From the NCBI GenBank assembly GCA_015062545.1, contig SUUL01000003.1:1-64000 (forward strand): DNA of 64,000 bases, in the 5' to 3' direction. Under the pieces are notes generated by a model, which worked only from the letters and a program-made list of their open reading frames with translations, ran no database searches and was not told where the DNA came from. Source of the stretch: Alphaproteobacteria bacterium (lineage in GTDB: Bacteria > Pseudomonadota > Alphaproteobacteria > Rs-D84). Numbering within the stretch: the first letter of the stretch is position 1; the number at the start of each line of letters is the position of its first letter. Both the position numbers and the translations under genes were made by a program. This document shows positions 43,033-52,113 of this stretch, in pieces.

Positions 43033-44172
43033 TTATTCAATCCAAATCTTGGCAGATGTCGTTGACGTTGCAGAACCCGCAGGTACCGTACCCCACTCTG
43101 CAACCCCGGCTGTTGTTGCACTGGCGGACACAACGGTAACAACAGTATTATCACTCTCCTCAGTAGAATCAACAACTAAACCATTTCCAAACTTTATCTG
43201 ACTTTCATGAACGGCCACTTTATCTGCCGTACCATCATCAGCACCAACCCCAATCCCAGAAACATAACACACGGTACCATCTTCGCCATCACACGAACTA
43301 TCTAACTGAACAGGCACCCCTTTTACAACGCCATCTGGTTCAATCACAACAAACCCCGAAACATCGGCACCATCTTCTTCATCTGATACCACTGCAGGAA
43401 TCTTATTTTGTTTGCTATTCAACGCACTTGTTACAACCTTGTTCTGAACCGGGTTGGTACTGGTTGTGCTTAGCGCGCTGTCAACCGTGGTTTCTGGTGC
43501 ATTAGCACGTGTCAAGGTTACCGCACCATCATCAGTAACAGCTATATCTGTTACAAATTGACCTGTACCAGAATCAGAAATCCGAACCGCCTTTAGCTTG
43601 CCATCTTGATTCGCGGTTACAATGGCATTTGTTACAATACTTCCACCAACTGTATCACAGGTATCATAACCACCTTCGTCTATGTAACATCTTTCGTATC
43701 CATTTATTAAGGGTTGCTTTTTATCAAGTTCGTCATTTATATATACGGTTCTTTCATACAACGACATACCGTCCATTGGTGTTTCATCATTTATTGAATT
43801 TCCGGGAAGGCCTGTAAAACTTACCAAATCTTCTATATTAAAATAAATGTTTCCACCATACATACCTGCCGTGCTTTCCCAATTACCCATATTCGCGGGA
43901 TCTTGAAAATACTCATATGGCAAGACATACTGCAAAGCATCATAAAAAGCACTCATGCTAACTGGTGTGGAATCATATAGTTGGCAAGTTGCATTGTCTA
44001 AGCTATCATAACCCATATCACACGTCTGTACACTGATTATGCCATCAGCAATTTGAACATTATCACCGGCGGTCAAGGCATTTTCATCCACATATTTTGT
44101 TGATGCAATATCGGCGCGGGCCATACCTGTGGCGGCCATAATAATCAATAACGATAACAAAAATTTATTCAT
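43033..44172 (-). CDS. Secreted/surface hypothetical protein
   Basis: Signal peptide MNKFLLSLLIIMAATGMARA; Thr/Asp-rich with repeated beta-like segments; preceded by a structured leader. Confidence 0.65.
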   Translation of the reverse strand: MNKFLLSLLIIMAATGMARADIASTKYVDENALTAGDNVQIADGIISVQTCDMGYDSLDNATCQLYDSTPVSMSAFYDALQYVLPYEYFQDPANMGNWESTAGMYGGNIYFNIEDLVSFTGLPGNSINDETPMDGMSLYERTVYINDELDKKQPLINGYERCYIDEGGYDTCDTVGGSIVTNAIVTANQDGKLKAVRISDSGTGQFVTDIAVTDDGAVTLTRANAPETTVDSALSTTSTNPVQNKVVTSALNSKQNKIPAVVSDEEDGADVSGFVVIEPDGVVKGVPVQLDSSCDGEDGTVCYVSGIGVGADDGTADKVAVHESQIKFGNGLVVDSTEESDNTVVTVVSASATTAGVAEWGTVPAGSATSTTSAKIWIE

Positions 44173-44500
44173 ACCCTTTCCCCCCGATTACAGATCCTTG
44201 GCGGCGACACGGTCAAACAGAGATTTGGGGTTGGTGGTCCCCACAAACCGTGTCACCACATAACAAAAAAACCACTGAAAAATTTCAAGTGGTCAGGAGG
44301 TTGGAAACAATCTCTAAGAATTGTGCCGCTTATTTTGCATATTACCCGCATTATTCGCGAGCCCTCCTGACCAAATATGATCAGGAGTATTTATCATCCG
44401 AAACACGATATAAAAAATACGCCATACGGCGCGTCCGCTATCGTGCGTGGACGCTTAGAGCCCGGGTTTCCACACCCCATCAACAGAATCCCTGTTAACA
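44173..44500 (-). ncRNA. Structured 5' leader A (candidate cis-regulatory RNA)
   Basis: Two intrinsic terminators (44412-44431; 44263-44293), closing stem 44291-44300/44363-44372, competing hairpin arm 44381-44387; same layout as 51792-52113. Confidence 0.65.
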
Positions 44501-44506
44501 TTAAAT

Positions 44507-44536
44507 ATTATAACATATATTTATATTTTATGGCAA
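44507..44536 (-). promoter_or_regulatory. Sigma70-like promoter of leader A
   Basis: TTGCCA-N18-TATAAT on the minus strand. Confidence 0.65.
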
Positions 44537-44583: not shown

Positions 44584-47500
44584 TTACCACTGCAGATAAC
44601 CATCTTTGCAATAATGTTCACACTTATTCGTATTCTTATTCCACACATGCCATCCTGTTTCATCTTCGCCCTGACAAATTAATTCACACTCGCCACCAAT
44701 CGGGGCAAAGATTTCCCCATGATACATACAGGTTGCAATTTCACATTCATGAACATAAGTACTGACCACACGTTCACCATTTGCGCCATACATATTTCTA
44801 CATTCCACACACTGATTGTTGGTGTTCAAAACATTTCCCTGCATCGGATCAGATGTATATCCCGGATCGCATTTTGTTGGAACACATTCACCCCATTTAG
44901 ACAAATTATGATTCCATTCACGTTCCCCAACACCGTGCGCCAATTCGCATGGTGCAATATCCAGCAGACACATATTTGCTTCCACGTGATATCCGCTTTC
45001 ACATTCTTTAACGATACATTCTGCAAACAAACCCGACATTTTGTCCCAATGACGTTCTGCCAACACTGCATGTGGCGCGAAACACCGTTCCCCAGTATCA
45101 GGATAAGGAAATTCACACGCCGTATGATTATCAACAGCAATCTTGCCTTCACCACATTCCTTACATATCGTCATACCATCTGTGGAATAAGTATTACCTG
45201 TACATTCGGTCACAGTACCATCACCCGGACACGCATACCCCGCAGGACACGATTCACATGCCGTATGGTTATCAACAGCAATCTTGCCTTCGCCACATTC
45301 CTCGCATGTCGTCATACCATCTGTGGAATAAGTATTACCTGTACATTCGGTCACAGTGCCATCATCAGAACACGCATACCCCGCAGGACACGATTCACAC
45401 GCCGTATGATTATCCACCGATACCGTACCAACCGGACATTCCGAACATGTCATCATACCATCTGTGGAATAAGTATTACCTGTACATTCGGTCACACTGC
45501 CATCATCAGAACATTCATAACCTGCGGGACATGGTTTACACTCATTACCCGACAGATATTCACCAGATTCACAAACTATCTGTTCACATGCCGTATGATT
45601 ACCGTTCGGCTTGGTGCCAACCGGACATTCCGAACATTCTGTTGAACCCGCAACGGCATAAGTATTACCTGTACATTCGGTCACAGTGCCATCACCCGGG
45701 CACGCATACCCCGCAGGACACGATTCGCACGCCGTATGATTATCCACCGATACCGTACCAACCGGACATTCCGAACATGTCATCATACCATCTGTGGAAT
45801 AAGTATTACCTGTACATTCGGTCACAGTACCGTCACCCGGGCAGGCATACCCCGCAGGACATTCAACACACTCATTACCCAACAGATATTTACCAGATTC
45901 ACAAACTATATTTTCACATGCCGTATGGTCACTGTTGGGCTTGGTACCTGTGGCACATTCCGAACATTCTGTTGACCCCGCAACGGCATAAGTATTACCT
46001 GTACATTCGGTCACAGTGCCATCACCAGAACACGCAGAACCCGCAGGACATGGTTTACACTCATTACCAAACAGATATTCACCAGATTTACAAACTATCT
46101 GTTCACATGCCGTATGACCAACATTCGGCTTGGTACCTGTTGGACATTCCGAACACTCTGTTGAACCCGCAACGGCATAAGTATTACCTGTACATTCGGT
46201 CACAGTACCATCACCCGGACACGCATACCCCGCAGAACATGGTTTACATGATGCCTCCGATGCTGTAGTATATATATATTCCCCCTCAAGACATTCTAAT
46301 TTTACACAACCACCATCTTCGCCTTCGACATACCCATTGCCAGCATCACACACACATCCATACTTATTGTTAATAACCATATTTTCGCCCGGACATTCCG
46401 TTTTACACGCATATGGTTTATTGCTGTTAACCCCGTTATTATAAGATCCATCTGGACATGGCGTACAAACCACATCATTAATCCATGTCTGCAATTCATC
46501 TGGTGAAACACCTTGATTGGTCGTTGCAAATGATTTTTCAAATTCTGCCACCTTATCTGGCGCAACACCCGTGGCACCCAAACACACCAGTGAATTAGGA
46601 TCATCAGAATGCCAGGACAGATACCCCCCATCTTGCGAAGAATATTTCAACATCAAATCACCCATATAATTAGTAAAAAACGTTTCGCCATCCTTTGGAA
46701 TTCCTACATGGCCATAAGCGGCATAATACATACACGTATCTTTACTAGTTTGGTTGAAATCACACGCTTTTTGACATTCCGCAACAGCTGCCGAATCCAC
46801 CAAGGATAAACAATTATATTCACACTCTGTGGTAGGCATTAGTCCAGAAAGCTTTTCCCCCCCCATCGTAACGGCGGGACATTCCTTGCACAAATACGAT
46901 GTGTCATCTGAATATGTACCCATCACACAAGAACCACACGCACTATGAACTACATCAAATGTAAAACTATTCAACCCCTGCGAATCTTTAAAATATCCAT
47001 TAAACGCTTCATAAATATCGTCATAACCAAGATAGCTCAATCCGTACCCCACCGCGCAACTTAAATCATCAATAGATTCCGCATTACACAGATAATCACC
47101 CGCATCATTCGAATATTCACAGGATACATTTTTTAATACGCCCCAACCTTCGGTATTATCCTTTATTGTGGTTGTAAATGCACATTTGTTCCCAACCCAT
47201 TTGGTATCTTGTAATTCTGATAAATAATCAAAGTAAATCAATTCTGGACATGCTTCACATGTATATCCACTACCATCCGAAAATGTCTTATCTGAACACG
47301 TCTGACACACATTTGCCATTTTTGTTGCCAAATCAATCGCATGCTGATTGTTATCGGTCAAACCCGTAACATCTGTCGCGGTCGCACCCGTCCCAGCTGC
47401 ACATGTCAAACCATCAACCGATTCGGCTTTACAGAAATACAAAGCATCTGCATCATCATATTCACAGGATACATTTTTTAACGTGGCATTTCCCAATGTA

Positions 47501-47670
47501 ATCGTTGCCGTAAAGTCACATGAATTTTCATCAGGCGCGATCTTATCAGTCACCGTAACATCGTGATTTCCCCAATTAACAGCCGGGCAATCTGCGGCAA
47601 ATGCATTTGCCCCAGTTAACACAACAAACAGTGCCACAAAAAGCCTCAGAAATCTGTGCCTTTTTCCCAT
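44584..47670 (-). CDS. Large Cys-rich secreted protein with seven TNFR/ephrin-receptor-like (GCC2_GCC3-type) modules
   Basis: Start MGKRHRFLRLFVALFVVLTGANAFA; repeated CPAGYACPGDGTVTECTGNTY(AVAGSTECSEC/STDGMMTCSEC) units. Confidence 0.85.
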   Translation of the reverse strand: MGKRHRFLRLFVALFVVLTGANAFAADCPAVNWGNHDVTVTDKIAPDENSCDFTATITLGNATLKNVSCEYDDADALYFCKAESVDGLTCAAGTGATATDVTGLTDNNQHAIDLATKMANVCQTCSDKTFSDGSGYTCEACPELIYFDYLSELQDTKWVGNKCAFTTTIKDNTEGWGVLKNVSCEYSNDAGDYLCNAESIDDLSCAVGYGLSYLGYDDIYEAFNGYFKDSQGLNSFTFDVVHSACGSCVMGTYSDDTSYLCKECPAVTMGGEKLSGLMPTTECEYNCLSLVDSAAVAECQKACDFNQTSKDTCMYYAAYGHVGIPKDGETFFTNYMGDLMLKYSSQDGGYLSWHSDDPNSLVCLGATGVAPDKVAEFEKSFATTNQGVSPDELQTWINDVVCTPCPDGSYNNGVNSNKPYACKTECPGENMVINNKYGCVCDAGNGYVEGEDGGCVKLECLEGEYIYTTASEASCKPCSAGYACPGDGTVTECTGNTYAVAGSTECSECPTGTKPNVGHTACEQIVCKSGEYLFGNECKPCPAGSACSGDGTVTECTGNTYAVAGSTECSECATGTKPNSDHTACENIVCESGKYLLGNECVECPAGYACPGDGTVTECTGNTYSTDGMMTCSECPVGTVSVDNHTACESCPAGYACPGDGTVTECTGNTYAVAGSTECSECPVGTKPNGNHTACEQIVCESGEYLSGNECKPCPAGYECSDDGSVTECTGNTYSTDGMMTCSECPVGTVSVDNHTACESCPAGYACSDDGTVTECTGNTYSTDGMTTCEECGEGKIAVDNHTACESCPAGYACPGDGTVTECTGNTYSTDGMTICKECGEGKIAVDNHTACEFPYPDTGERCFAPHAVLAERHWDKMSGLFAECIVKECESGYHVEANMCLLDIAPCELAHGVGEREWNHNLSKWGECVPTKCDPGYTSDPMQGNVLNTNNQCVECRNMYGANGERVVSTYVHECEIATCMYHGEIFAPIGGECELICQGEDETGWHVWNKNTNKCEHYCKDGYLQW
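45110..46250 (-). repeat. Near-identical intragenic DNA repeats within the Cys-rich gene
   Basis: Seven copies of the stretch complementary to gtattacctgtacattcggtcaca(g/c)t(a/g)cc. Confidence 0.93.
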
Positions 47671-47783
47671 ACTTCCCATCTCTTAGAAATAATGATATAA
47701 AAATTCCGCACACCTGTACAAGCAAAAAAAGAAAATCATGTAAAAACCCGCCATACGGCGGGTTTGTCTTGTCTGCACCATGT

Positions 47784-50700
47784 TTAGAATTTGGCACGCA
47801 ATTTGAACATACCTGTTTGAGATGTATAATCTTCGTGTAAATCCAAATCATACATTACAGATAATTCAACGCCCTTGTAATTGGCTGTTAACCCAATTCC
47901 AAATTCACCACCCAGACGACTCAAGCGTTCACCACCAACCTGATATGATGCGCCACCTGGCATCATAACTGTTGATACGCTTTCATCACTCAACAGGTCA
48001 TACGTAACCGCCGCATGCAGTGTTGGTTGTAACTGTAATGCCCAATCATTCTGAATCGCAAAGGCATAGTTAACACCCGCCACACCCGTCAAGAAATCTG
48101 TATCCATCGCCTTGACATCATGCAAACCATTGTTATAACCGTCCTGTGCGATATGCAGGTAACGTACCCCCATATCTGTTGTGATACCTGTTCCAAACGC
48201 ATAACCTGTCATAACCTGTGCGCCATACGAATCAACATCGTATGAATTTGACACTGGCACACCAAATACAGTTGTCGCTTCGGTATATTCAGACATGCCG
48301 TATGTCAATGTACCGTTCACGAACCATTTGTTTGGCATATACTGGCCATACAGGAACAATGTTTTGCTGTCAATATCTGTATGACGTGCATTTGCATGTA
48401 CATCAGAACTGTTGATTGCCAACCCACCACCAAGTGTATATTTATTGTCAATCAATGTATCTGCCCCCAATGCCATACCGCGTGTATATCCATGGAATTG
48501 GTCTGCATACTTTGACTTATTAAACAATCCCTGAATCCAGAAACCATTTTCTTGACTGCGCACATCGCCACCAGAACGCCCCACTGCCGGCATTGGTGCG
48601 GACATACGTCCAGATGCCAATGACAAGACCTGATTCTGAACAGAAGTCGCCGCGGCCTGTGCCACAGGTTTATCTGTTGGGTTCAACTTGGACGTTTCAC
48701 GTTCCACCAACGCAACATCACCAGAATTCAACGCCTGTTGTGCCGCCAAAGAAACTTGGTGCAACTGAACATTACCGGAATTTGCCAATCCCGACACAAC
48801 ACCCGATGCCTGTTCTGAAAGTCCCGTTTCCTGTGCAATGGATGCAACATCTTTGGTTGTAATCACAATGCCATTTTCTGTAACATCGGCAACTTCGTAT
48901 ATCTTGCCCACAGATATCTGTTCTGCTTTTACGATTGCACCGTTCAAGATATTATAAGTACCTACTGCGCCAACATTGATTGTAAACAACGCGTCATCAC
49001 CAACGTTTACATCACCAATAAAGTGACCATATCCATTACCACGCTGATTATTCAACACAGACAGTGTTACATTCCCCTGAATATCAATGAAATTCTGACG
49101 AATTGTCGTTGTTCCGATATTCAGCTTTGCCCCCTGCGCCAATGTCAAGGTTCCTGTACCGGTCACGCCACCACCCAATGTTGTTTCGCCGCCTGCGATA
49201 TTCAATGTTCCCAAATTATGAATATCATTCAAGCCACGATATTTTCCAGCATAGTTATCAGTAAATTCATTTATACCTGATAACACCACTGTACCACCAG
49301 CGCCATTATAAATCGCACCGCCTTGGCTGCTTGCACCGTTACCACCAAAGGTCACATTATTCAAACGAATTGTCGCATAATTTTCGCCACGATCCCCCAG
49401 TCCTTCGTTATAAATCGCGCCACCTTCATTTGCTTCATTTGCAAAGAATTTTGTATCTGTTACATAGGCATGATCAACAACTTCTTGGCTGTTATAGAAT
49501 GCGGTATAAATCGCACCACCCTTGGTTGCTGCAACATTCTCGCGGAAAGTACTGTTTTTAATATCTAACTTTGCCGCAGAATTGTCACCTTTGTCCGGAC
49601 TACGCGTTGCAATCGCACCACCAACACCAGCGGATTTATTAGATATAAACATGCCATTATCCAGTACTGCCTGCGCTTCGGAACCAAAGAACAACGCACC
49701 TGCACCATCATTAAAGTTTTCAAACTCACCTGTGGTATAATTATTCTCAAACAACAAATTGGTCAATGTTGTATTTTTACCAAAGATACCCAGCGCACCA
49801 ATATCCGATGCCCAGTTCCCTTCAAATTCAACATTTTCAATATTTGTGGTCAATGCATGTTTGGACACATAAACCGCACCACCTGTCAATGCATGATTTT
49901 CAGAAAATTCTGCATATTCATCCGATGCCCCACTGATATCAACCAGATCACCGCGCGCAAAGATTGCACCACCATAGCCATAGTCGCCATCAGCATTTGC
50001 AGTTGCATAGTTTTTACTAAAATCGGTACCGCTGATTTTCAACGTCCCATCAGACCAAATGGCACCACCATCACCATTTCCACCAACAATATAGTTGTTT
50101 TCAAATTCACCACCGTTAATTGTCAGTGTACCAGTATTATAGATTGCACCACCCTCACTGGCGAAATTGTTTTCAAATTCCGCACCATTAATGGTCATAA
50201 CACCGCCATGTCCATGTGTATCATGACGACCATCGTTATAAATCGCGCCACCCTGATTTCCGGCCCTGTTACCATCAAAGATACCCGCAACGGTTACACC
50301 GCGACCATTACCCGATTCGTTATCGCTATAGAACGTGTTATAAATCGCACCACCGTTATTTTCTGCAAAATTGTTTTCAAAAGTTGCAGCAATATCTAAC
50401 TTCGCCAAATTAGAGTTAAAGGCCCCATTAGACGTGTTTTGTGCCAAACGTGTACCAATCGCACCACCATTATGTCCAGATTTGTTATTTCTGAATGTTG
50501 CTTCAGATATTGATGTAATGGCCGTATCAGATCTGGCCCCCAATGCCAATGCACCGCCCCCTATTGGGTCATTATTTGTTGGGATTTTAACAGTATATTC
50601 ACCCTTGTCATCTTTGGAATACATTGCTGTATTATCTTCGAATAAACCACCAACAATTTCCAAAGATTTAAATGCAGAAACCGCACCACCATCTTCGGCA

Positions 50701-51791
50701 TGATTATTTTTGAATGTACCGTTGTTAATCTGTAACAAACCGGTTGAATCTTTGGAACCGCCAATCGCACCACCAGATGTCGCGGCATTATCAACAAAGG
50801 TAGAATCTGTAATTGTTGTTGTACCAACTGTCCATATTGCGCCACCAAATCCACCATCATGGGTTTCGTTACCTTGGAATATTGCGCCCTTGACTTTCAA
50901 TTCGCCATTTGCGGCAACATTTATTGCACCACCATCTTTATTACCCTTGATAATATTATCCATAAAGATAACAGAATCCGATTCGGTCAAGTCTAACTCT
51001 GCATCTGACCCAACCAGAATACGAGAATTATCTTTTACCAAGAAAGCATCTGCATCAATTTTAGATTTTCCATCAGACGCATTATGAATACCATTCAAGA
51101 TATTTGCAGGAACCTTATTATTTACTACATTAAGTGTGGTATCAGACAACAACACATTCTTGGCTGTCAGTTTTGTTCCATCCAACGTCAAATCAACATG
51201 GTTTGTTGCCAACATACCTGCTGTCTTGGTTGCATCACGTTGCGCAAATAAATACAGCCCATACACCATATTTGGCGCTTCTTGTAAAATCTCTGGTCCC
51301 CAACCGTTTTTAGCAAGAATATCCACTACTTCATCATTCCATACAATACCTTTTTCTTTTGCGATATCAATATCGGCATAAGAAACTTCGCCATCTGCCA
51401 AATCTGTATTTGCCCAGTTTGATTCACCAGCCTTTCCCGGGGTTTGCCAGTTATAGGCGAATGCTTCATCGTCCTGCAATTCACGCAAAGTCATATTCAC
51501 AGGTCCAACATAAACATTTGGACGTTCATCTGCCGTGCCAGACAGGTTTACAGAACGACCCACAACATTATAATTTGGGAAATCGTTTCCACGTTTATCC
51601 CCCACCACAGAAACACGACCACCAATTGCAGAATTGTTCGCTGTTTCATACCCCAGATTCAGGTCACCAAAAACCCACGCATTTCCGGATGTATTTGGCA
51701 AATCTGCCATTGCCGGCATAATCGCCAAAGCTGGCAAAATACTGCAGACTTTCATCAGGTCTGCCAAATGTTTAATATTGGACATGGACAT
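47784..51791 (-). CDS. Autotransporter: Pmp-like GGAIYN/FENN passenger plus autotransporter beta-domain
   Basis: Many F..N.A..GGAIYN repeats; C-terminal FWIQGLFNKSKYADQFHGYTRG...MYDLDLHEDYTSQTGMFKLRAKF. Confidence 0.92.
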   Translation of the reverse strand: MSMSNIKHLADLMKVCSILPALAIMPAMADLPNTSGNAWVFGDLNLGYETANNSAIGGRVSVVGDKRGNDFPNYNVVGRSVNLSGTADERPNVYVGPVNMTLRELQDDEAFAYNWQTPGKAGESNWANTDLADGEVSYADIDIAKEKGIVWNDEVVDILAKNGWGPEILQEAPNMVYGLYLFAQRDATKTAGMLATNHVDLTLDGTKLTAKNVLLSDTTLNVVNNKVPANILNGIHNASDGKSKIDADAFLVKDNSRILVGSDAELDLTESDSVIFMDNIIKGNKDGGAINVAANGELKVKGAIFQGNETHDGGFGGAIWTVGTTTITDSTFVDNAATSGGAIGGSKDSTGLLQINNGTFKNNHAEDGGAVSAFKSLEIVGGLFEDNTAMYSKDDKGEYTVKIPTNNDPIGGGALALGARSDTAITSISEATFRNNKSGHNGGAIGTRLAQNTSNGAFNSNLAKLDIAATFENNFAENNGGAIYNTFYSDNESGNGRGVTVAGIFDGNRAGNQGGAIYNDGRHDTHGHGGVMTINGAEFENNFASEGGAIYNTGTLTINGGEFENNYIVGGNGDGGAIWSDGTLKISGTDFSKNYATANADGDYGYGGAIFARGDLVDISGASDEYAEFSENHALTGGAVYVSKHALTTNIENVEFEGNWASDIGALGIFGKNTTLTNLLFENNYTTGEFENFNDGAGALFFGSEAQAVLDNGMFISNKSAGVGGAIATRSPDKGDNSAAKLDIKNSTFRENVAATKGGAIYTAFYNSQEVVDHAYVTDTKFFANEANEGGAIYNEGLGDRGENYATIRLNNVTFGGNGASSQGGAIYNGAGGTVVLSGINEFTDNYAGKYRGLNDIHNLGTLNIAGGETTLGGGVTGTGTLTLAQGAKLNIGTTTIRQNFIDIQGNVTLSVLNNQRGNGYGHFIGDVNVGDDALFTINVGAVGTYNILNGAIVKAEQISVGKIYEVADVTENGIVITTKDVASIAQETGLSEQASGVVSGLANSGNVQLHQVSLAAQQALNSGDVALVERETSKLNPTDKPVAQAAATSVQNQVLSLASGRMSAPMPAVGRSGGDVRSQENGFWIQGLFNKSKYADQFHGYTRGMALGADTLIDNKYTLGGGLAINSSDVHANARHTDIDSKTLFLYGQYMPNKWFVNGTLTYGMSEYTEATTVFGVPVSNSYDVDSYGAQVMTGYAFGTGITTDMGVRYLHIAQDGYNNGLHDVKAMDTDFLTGVAGVNYAFAIQNDWALQLQPTLHAAVTYDLLSDESVSTVMMPGGASYQVGGERLSRLGGEFGIGLTANYKGVELSVMYDLDLHEDYTSQTGMFKLRAKF

Positions 51792-52113
51792 CTCCTTTCT
51801 AAGATTAATTCCTAAACTTATTCGTAGCACATAAATTTTAATAATCAATAAATTTTATTAAGTATTAAAAAAGTGCCGCCAAAGAATTTGGCGGTCGGGT
51901 GGGTTAAGAAAATCATAAACTAGAATGACCCCGCCAGCCTTTGGACAACGCCTGTTTTATAACTGACAGCCCCCCGACCATGCGGGGTTCACGATATAAT
52001 AAAAGGCACCGAACGTGCCGCATATCATATCTGCGGATATTGCATGTGCACCGCACACACTAACTAGTTTATGGACTTTCTTAAGGTCCCGAATCCAAAT
52101 CCCTTTGGGTTCA
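51792..52113 (-). ncRNA. Structured 5' leader B (candidate cis-regulatory RNA)
   Basis: Terminators at 51997-52019 and 51867-51894, closing stem 51893-51899/51973-51979, competing arm 51983-51987, shared cacgatata at 51990-51998. Confidence 0.65.

Follow-up and report, generated by a model that had tools for sequence, protein, structure and literature searches.

Leader A, an RNA encoded on the minus strand at 44536-44173 of the window (the whole 64,000-nucleotide stretch of alphaproteobacterial DNA analysed here), is probably a two-domain RNA attenuator related to a phage leader that precedes antirepressor genes, a reading to which we give a probability of about 0.62. On the sequence comparisons assembled below, it is best read as a domesticated phage antirepressor leader that would work by RNA-RNA pairing. 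The evidence comprises two long-range pairings, competition among three strands, an overlap between the closing stem and terminator 2, homology to the RF02221 family (sRNA-Xcc1), and a genomic context of surface and HTH genes. What appears to be new is that the leader has two domains, that two long-range helices covary, that one version carries terminator 2, and that the RNA has expanded to dozens of copies preceding surface genes.

All of the elements quoted in an earlier note on this DNA were found in place by inspection of the sequence. The promoter (TTGCCA-N18-TATAAT, 44507-44536; this and all features below lie on the minus strand) matches at 11 of 12 positions and has a TG before the -10 element. 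A scan of 18 kb gave 54 promoter-like sites, the three best of which reached 11/12; this promoter was one of the three and the only one with an extended -10. Transcription is predicted to start near 44500. The hairpins P1 (GUUAACAG-GGAUU-CUGUUGAU, 44479-44499), P2 (GGG-U..A-CCC, that is GGGGUGUGGAAACCC, 44464-44477) and P3 (GCGUCC..GGACGC, 44431-44454) follow, and terminator 1 (CGCCGUAUGGCG-UAUUUUUU / GCGCCGUAUGGCGU-AUUUUUU, 44412-44432), located by a terminator scan, ends the 5' domain. P1 was assigned by folding and alignment; its stem sequence varies between loci and the hairpin is usually present, as read off the alignment without a count. P2 was paired in 100% of cells, and the CGUC..GACG of P3 recurs in relatives with variable length. 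In the 3' domain, alignment and duplex energies placed the 5' strand of P4 (CUCCUGAUC, 44379-44387, from the energies), the middle strand (GGUCAGGAGG, 44363-44372, from both) and the 3' strand of the closing stem (CCUCCUGACC, 44291-44300, from both). Between the latter two are P5 (44327-44359, from the alignment), a CGC/GCG stem with a conserved GAAUA..AAUAA internal loop, and the hairpin P6 (ACAAU-UCUUAGAG-AUUGU, 44307-44324), paired in 99.1% of cells. Terminator 2 (ACCACUUGAAA..UUUCAGUGGU-U7, 44265-44293) was identified from the sequence and by the terminator scan. The 328-nt leader folded 5.4 standard deviations better than dinucleotide shuffles (z -5.4), and the 134-nt 3' part 3.8 standard deviations better than shuffles (z -3.8). 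This folding excess, together with conservation and strong covariation in more than 100 loci, indicated that the structure of leader A is beyond chance.

The open reading frame was said in the earlier note to come right after terminator 2; in leader A the two are separated by an untranslated region of about 92 nt. This untranslated region (window 44200-44260) contains an extra long hairpin, GACACGGUUUGUGGGG..CCCC..GACCGUGUC, which is also present at two paralogous loci (L002, L003) and is absent from most relatives. The gene itself (43033-44172) encodes a 379-aa protein with a signal peptide (MNKFLLSLLIIMAATGMARADIASTKYVDE...) and no Pfam family.

The 5' half of the leader pairs with the 3' half through two long-range helices, designated pk1 and pk2. 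The 5' strand of pk1 (CUCUAAG, 44454-44460) lies directly 3' of the P2 hairpin and its 3' strand (CUUAGAG, 44312-44318) lies in the loop of P6, the CAAU..AUUG hairpin. CUCUAAG had been taken for the arm of a local hairpin, and its assignment is here replaced by this long-range pairing. The pk2 helix, which the earlier note overlooked, joins UGGAAAC in the P2 loop (44466-44472) to GUUUCCA in the strand after the P6 hairpin (44302-44308). The energies of the isolated duplexes in leader A were -6.8 kcal/mol for pk1 and -7.2 kcal/mol for pk2. The pair statistics come from an alignment-free test and from a 67-locus alignment, and not from an automatic parse, which misplaces P6 in some loci. In the alignment-free test, the target of each of 123 loci was scored against its own and against foreign upstream regions with 5000 permutations. 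The own and foreign scores were 17.18 and 12.68 for pk2, and 17.04 and 14.76 for pk1, and in neither case did any of the 5000 permutations reach the observed mean. In the 67-locus alignment, 96.7% of 1964 cells were paired, compared to 81.9% in shuffles and 32-50% with slid partners; 294 cells were changed on both sides, compared to 80 in shuffles, and the covariation score was 0.400, compared to 0.132. The shuffles leave the relatedness of the loci in, and the alignment-free test and the distant families agree with the shuffle comparison. For pk2, 100% of cells in five columns were paired and four columns were changed on both sides, with at most four pair types per column pair. For pk1, all five columns were changed on both sides and 86.9% of cells were paired, a shortfall that includes rows with a 7-bp helix out of register. 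Covariation in related genomes, for which the earlier note had asked, was thus strong for the leader helices, in more than 100 loci by permutation test and alignment.

The middle strand GGUCAGGAGG has two alternative partners, CUCCUGAUC to its 5' side and CCUCCUGACC to its 3' side. The mutual exclusion of helices that had been proposed was borne out: positions 44372-44363 serve both the CUCCUGA/UCAGGAG hairpin and the GGUCAGGAGG/CCUCCUGACC closing stem, and in leader A the ACC that ends the closing stem indeed doubles as the base of terminator 2. At many loci the three strands have all changed in concert (CUCCAACC/GGUUGGAG/CCUCCAACC). Across 125 loci, the mean energies of the middle-strand duplexes were -13.7 kcal/mol on the 5' side (P4) and -18.0 kcal/mol on the 3' side (closing stem). 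Terminator 2 was found in 123 of the 125 loci, and the closing strand overlapped its 5' arm by 3-4 nt in 93/123 and by 2-6 nt in 119/123. Since the overlapped pairs of terminator 2 adjoin its U-tract, formation of the closing stem is expected to weaken termination. Imposing this stem cost 0.4 kcal/mol in leader A, and the median cost in the 125 loci was 2.1 kcal/mol; these energies are from nested models and are indicative only. On these models leader A looks poised, such that docking of the 5' domain could tip the balance.

These results suggest how the leader may act. The 5' domain (P1, P2, the pk1 strand and terminator 1) would carry two short antisense arms, and the 3' domain (P4/closing stem, P5, P6 and terminator 2) would be a distant sRNA-Xcc1-like fold in which the P6 loop and the adjoining strand are complementary to those arms. 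The 5' domain would dock on the 3' domain, either in cis or, once set free at terminator 1 as a short RNA, in trans. Docking would stabilise the closing stem, this stem would take the ACC from terminator 2, and RNA polymerase would then read into the surface gene. When undocked, P4 and terminator 2 would form and transcription would stop. The sign could also be the opposite, with docking opening P6 and favouring terminator 2. Candidate modulators of docking are transcription speed, RNA dosage, a protein or a phage signal.

The earlier note recognised no known riboswitch class in the leader. This stands for the window copy as far as Rfam matches go, yet it does not extend to the 3' domain, which is distantly related to sRNA-Xcc1 via intermediates. 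A search of the window with Rfam 15 returned four tRNAs only, none of them at the leader; leader A had no credible Rfam match even at E<=10, and the search on 15 relatives of the leader gave tRNAs only. By score, leader A is not a member of RF02221 (no match at E<=10; gathering cut-off 53 bits). The best RF02221 score in its own genome, 35.2 bits with E 7.5e-5, belongs to a sister copy and is below the cut-off of 53. A broader covariance model, R2, which was built solely from alphaproteobacterial and phage-contig copies, matched at the same place as RF02221 in two genomes, where RF02221 itself scored 71.8 bits (L330) and 50.0 bits (L331) against its cut-off of 53, and R2 also recognised two further loci (L334, L335) at the RF02221 position. 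Because the R2 and RF02221 matches coincide and RF02221 detects a copy in the genome to which the window belongs, the comparison of models shows the 3' domain of the leader to be homologous, if distantly, to sRNA-Xcc1. The leader has the 9-10 bp closing stem, P5, P6 and the strand between P6 and the closing stem that characterise the RF02221 structure, and the P5 of both RNAs has an AAUA..GGGGAAUA loop.

RF02221 loci were found in 59 of 399 genomes of the phylum, and they carry the same 5' arms: in 32 loci, 0/5000 permutations reached the observed value for each of pk1 and pk2, with a smaller margin for pk1. In L330 and L346 the arms are about 220 nt upstream, so the geometry of the pairing is loose. 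Many RF02221 loci precede antirepressor-like genes (Bro-N, KilA-N and Rha-like, from annotation and from reading of the N-termini). The order in E. coli phage Rac-SA53 is arms, terminator, RF02221 and ant, and RF02221-like DNA occurs at the matching place in E. coli prophages and Vibrio anguillarum phages. The known range of sRNA-Xcc1 covers Xanthomonas, integron cassettes and phages. It was first found as an 88-nt RNA in Xanthomonas (PMC2996969), and it is known from Xanthomonas cassettes, where it precedes symE and has been described as a trans-acting sRNA (PMC12444791). It differs from the leader in that the RF02221 model is the 3' domain alone, that terminator 2 is mostly missing, and that its genomes hold one or few copies (at most 9 seen), whereas the leader reaches 52. 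In the literature we found no paper linking sRNA-Xcc1 to an upstream pairing partner or to antirepressor control; the motif may figure in a survey of human-microbiome RNAs (PMC8040213). An RNA that has so far been an orphan, described solely as a small trans-acting RNA, thus has loci that are the 3' half of a two-part leader, the halves of which are joined by two covarying helices and which often stands before phage antirepressors. This makes its function directly testable.

The two terminators were distributed differently among the locus groups, as counted by one heuristic. Terminators 1 and 2 were present, respectively, in 47/61 and 61/61 of the window-type loci, in 8/64 and 59/64 of the other alphaproteobacterial loci, and in 21/30 and 1/30 of the RF02221 loci; window-type leaders carry both. 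The simplest reading, taken from the counts and not from a tree, is that terminator 1 would be of phage type, whereas terminator 2 would have been added in Alphaproteobacteria and made an attenuator of the target fold. Since terminator 2 is rare at RF02221 loci and terminator 1 is rare at other alphaproteobacterial loci, cis attenuation and trans action may belong to different branches.

Similar logic is known from two other systems. In Salmonella Gifsy-1, one transcript yields the short RNA IsrK and a read-through target, AnrP; the two pair and switch, and the short RNA activates (PMC4825925). The IsrK/anrP leader (RF01394) resembles leader A in its layout, which runs from a promoter through a terminated short RNA and a read-through target to an antirepressor gene, and in that the 5' RNA pairs with a downstream part and switches between two exclusive structures; it differs in acting on translation via a small ORF, through about 30 nt of pairing (PMC4825925). 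RF01394 matched leader A at 44412-44484 with 10.5 bits and E 9.7 against a cut-off of 50, which is the right place and strand and yet at chance level. A short probe for a Salmonella small RNA gave no match, a result that carries no weight. IsrK/AnrP is a precedent for the switching logic, not for the RNA family. In phage P1, c4 RNA represses translation of icd-ant (NC_005856 annotation). As in the leader, antisense RNA and target are on one transcript and an antirepressor is controlled (NC_005856 annotation). The two complementary sites in P1 c4/icd-ant are short (7 and 8 nt), and their spacing is unlike that of the leader's sites. The leader likewise has two short antisense-target pairings on one transcript, a likeness that is one of logic and not of descent. 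Identity with P1 c4 was rejected, as R2 had no match at c4 in P1 and the window had no match to the c4 family in Rfam.

These precedents bear on an explanation that overlaps with our preferred one and places the emphasis on trans action, which we consider possible but on the doubtful side: a small RNA ending at terminator 1 would pair with the 3' domain of its own or related transcripts, and would repress or activate read-through or translation, on the model of phage c4/ant or IsrK/anrP. The terminator 1 counts at window-type and RF02221 loci, the Rac-SA53 order, with a terminator between the arms and the RF02221 fold before ant, and the IsrK precedent (PMC4825925) agree with it, but most other alphaproteobacterial copies keep both pairings without terminator 1, so that cis pairing is enough there, and the missing R2 match at c4 of P1 c4/ant also counts against it. 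The 88-nt RNA of Xanthomonas (PMC2996969) and the leader's own promoter and terminator would also fit an independent small RNA gene that merely adjoins the surface gene. This is highly improbable given that about 100 loci in several genomes have a gene with a ribosome site on the same strand, a short distance past terminator 2. The gene usually starts about 120-150 nt past the P4 strand, which leaves no room in most copies for a second promoter beyond terminator 2.

The riboswitch-or-attenuator logic of the earlier note held for a cis-regulatory leader with exclusive helices and attenuator logic, and not for ligand sensing, as there was neither evidence of an aptamer nor a common pathway. Transcription-attenuating riboswitches resemble the leader in their pseudoknots and in opposing an antiterminator to a terminator, and the leader does have a covarying multi-helix fold coupled to a terminator; its inputs, however, appear to be RNA arms. 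A metabolite or second-messenger riboswitch, in which a ligand pocket made by the GAAUA..AAUAA loop of P5 and the pseudoknots would set the closing stem against terminator 2, would account for the pseudoknotted multi-helix RNA with its typical expression platform, the conserved unpaired bases of P5, the many copies per genome, and the tandem copies in one genome (G145). We regard it as unlikely, because the downstream genes (surface, HTH and phage antirepressor) share no metabolic pathway, the homologous antirepressor leaders have no known ligand, and the P5 loop differs in subtype 2 (leader B). In four Ca. Enterousia-type genomes (G000, G003, G145, G016), no GGDEF or RelA/SpoT domains were found at E<=0.001 with positive controls, which makes c-di-GMP and (p)ppGpp unlikely ligands; bacteria of this type that have neither domain would lack both messengers. 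Ribosome-mediated attenuation through a leader peptide from the AUG after P1 was largely excluded. That AUG is present in 46/67 loci and its frame is open in leader A, but it is replaced by ACG, GCG, GUG, UUG or UCG in 21/67, and the short ORF is not conserved across the 67 loci, being 7 to 54 codons long or stopless with a random frame relative to P4 (19/25/23).

Leader A has two full-length paralogues in its own 0.94 Mb genome, with 87 and 82% identity, and by BLAST the leader was detected in 94/184 family genomes. With the covariance model R1 of the 3' domain, the RNA was found in 169/184 genomes of the family and in 13/14 genera. The number of copies per genome was 10 to 52 (E<=0.05, four well-assembled family genomes of about 1 Mb), counts in which some of the weakest rows are antisense echoes of a palindromic stem. 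Within the class Alphaproteobacteria, R2 detected the RNA in 26/387 genomes, and outside the class it matched two (L330, L331) among 399 genomes of the phylum. Exact-pattern matches elsewhere were in gut and termite Alphaproteobacteria and in four IMG/VR contigs, one of which carries a minimal copy upstream of a phage regulatory protein. The window leader itself had no match to phages by BLAST. Two related tailed-phage contigs from IMG/VR (L316, L317) carry the leader after tail and lysis genes and before differing cargo genes, one with a signal peptide and one a transporter-like ORF. In G145, pairs of leaders about 200-260 nt apart precede one gene, as in tandem riboswitches (C1:482217+482471, L185/L186; C1:544801+545062, L172/L182; C2:610+807, L183/L187).

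The genes behind leader A and both paralogues have a near-identical N-terminus, the start of the signal peptide, and then diverge. At L001, L002 and L003 (G000 C3, C11 and C4), leader, untranslated region and signal-peptide start are 82-87% identical and the mature proteins diverge quickly, as if a leader-plus-signal cassette had been swapped between surface genes. A hydrophobic start resembling a signal peptide was present in 54 of 59 downstream genes longer than 120 codons, compared to 17 of 43 window ORFs; the call was made by a hydropathy rule, not by SignalP, and the reference set is one window rich in surface genes. The shorter downstream genes encode mostly small HTH proteins. By Pfam and PHROGs, the downstream products include outer-membrane barrels, an opacity porin, a surface antigen and an O-antigen type glycosyltransferase, as well as superinfection immunity proteins, HTH repressors and antirepressors. 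In distant families, prepilins and lipoproteins are downstream of the RNA.

In very small gut bacteria this device has multiplied to a density of up to one copy per 20 kb. Most copies precede surface proteins, so the device may be a main route for setting what host and phages see; current Rfam models miss most copies of the class in these genomes. More speculatively, a phage antirepressor leader might have been turned into a genome-wide RNA network in Ca. Enterousia and relatives. Its poised leaders, as many as about 50, would each have individual antisense arms and would switch surface proteins as well as small HTH regulators. Signals could then pass between copies that share arms by way of RNAs ended at terminator 1, giving RNA-coded surface variation without DNA rearrangement, a proposal that we hold only tentatively.

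The window also holds leader B (51871-52113), a divergent copy of the leader A RNA, for which we took the copy at about 52113-51871 as the one meant in the earlier note. Model R1 matched it weakly, with 15 bits on the correct strand, and it was identified manually by its resemblance to L102, L103, L125 and L149. Its pk1 joins CAUAAACUAG (52073-52064) to CUAGUUUAUG (51923-51914), and its pk2 joins UUAAGAAA (52084-52077) to UUUCUUAA (51911-51904). The closing stem is GGUCGGG/CCCGACC and the terminator is CCGCCAAAUUCUUUGGCGG, both within 51871-52113. Leader B belongs to subtype 2, with a P5 loop unlike that of leader A, and lies upstream of an autotransporter gene (47784-51785) with Chlamydia-PMP-type repeats. 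Just upstream of leader A, the 1031-aa protein encoded at window 44584-47679 has many cysteine-rich repeats (CPAGYxCxGDGTVTECTGNTY), which Pfam assigns as ELAPOR1/TNFR-like and ephrin-receptor-like, and the end of a similar gene lies upstream of the paralogous leader L002.
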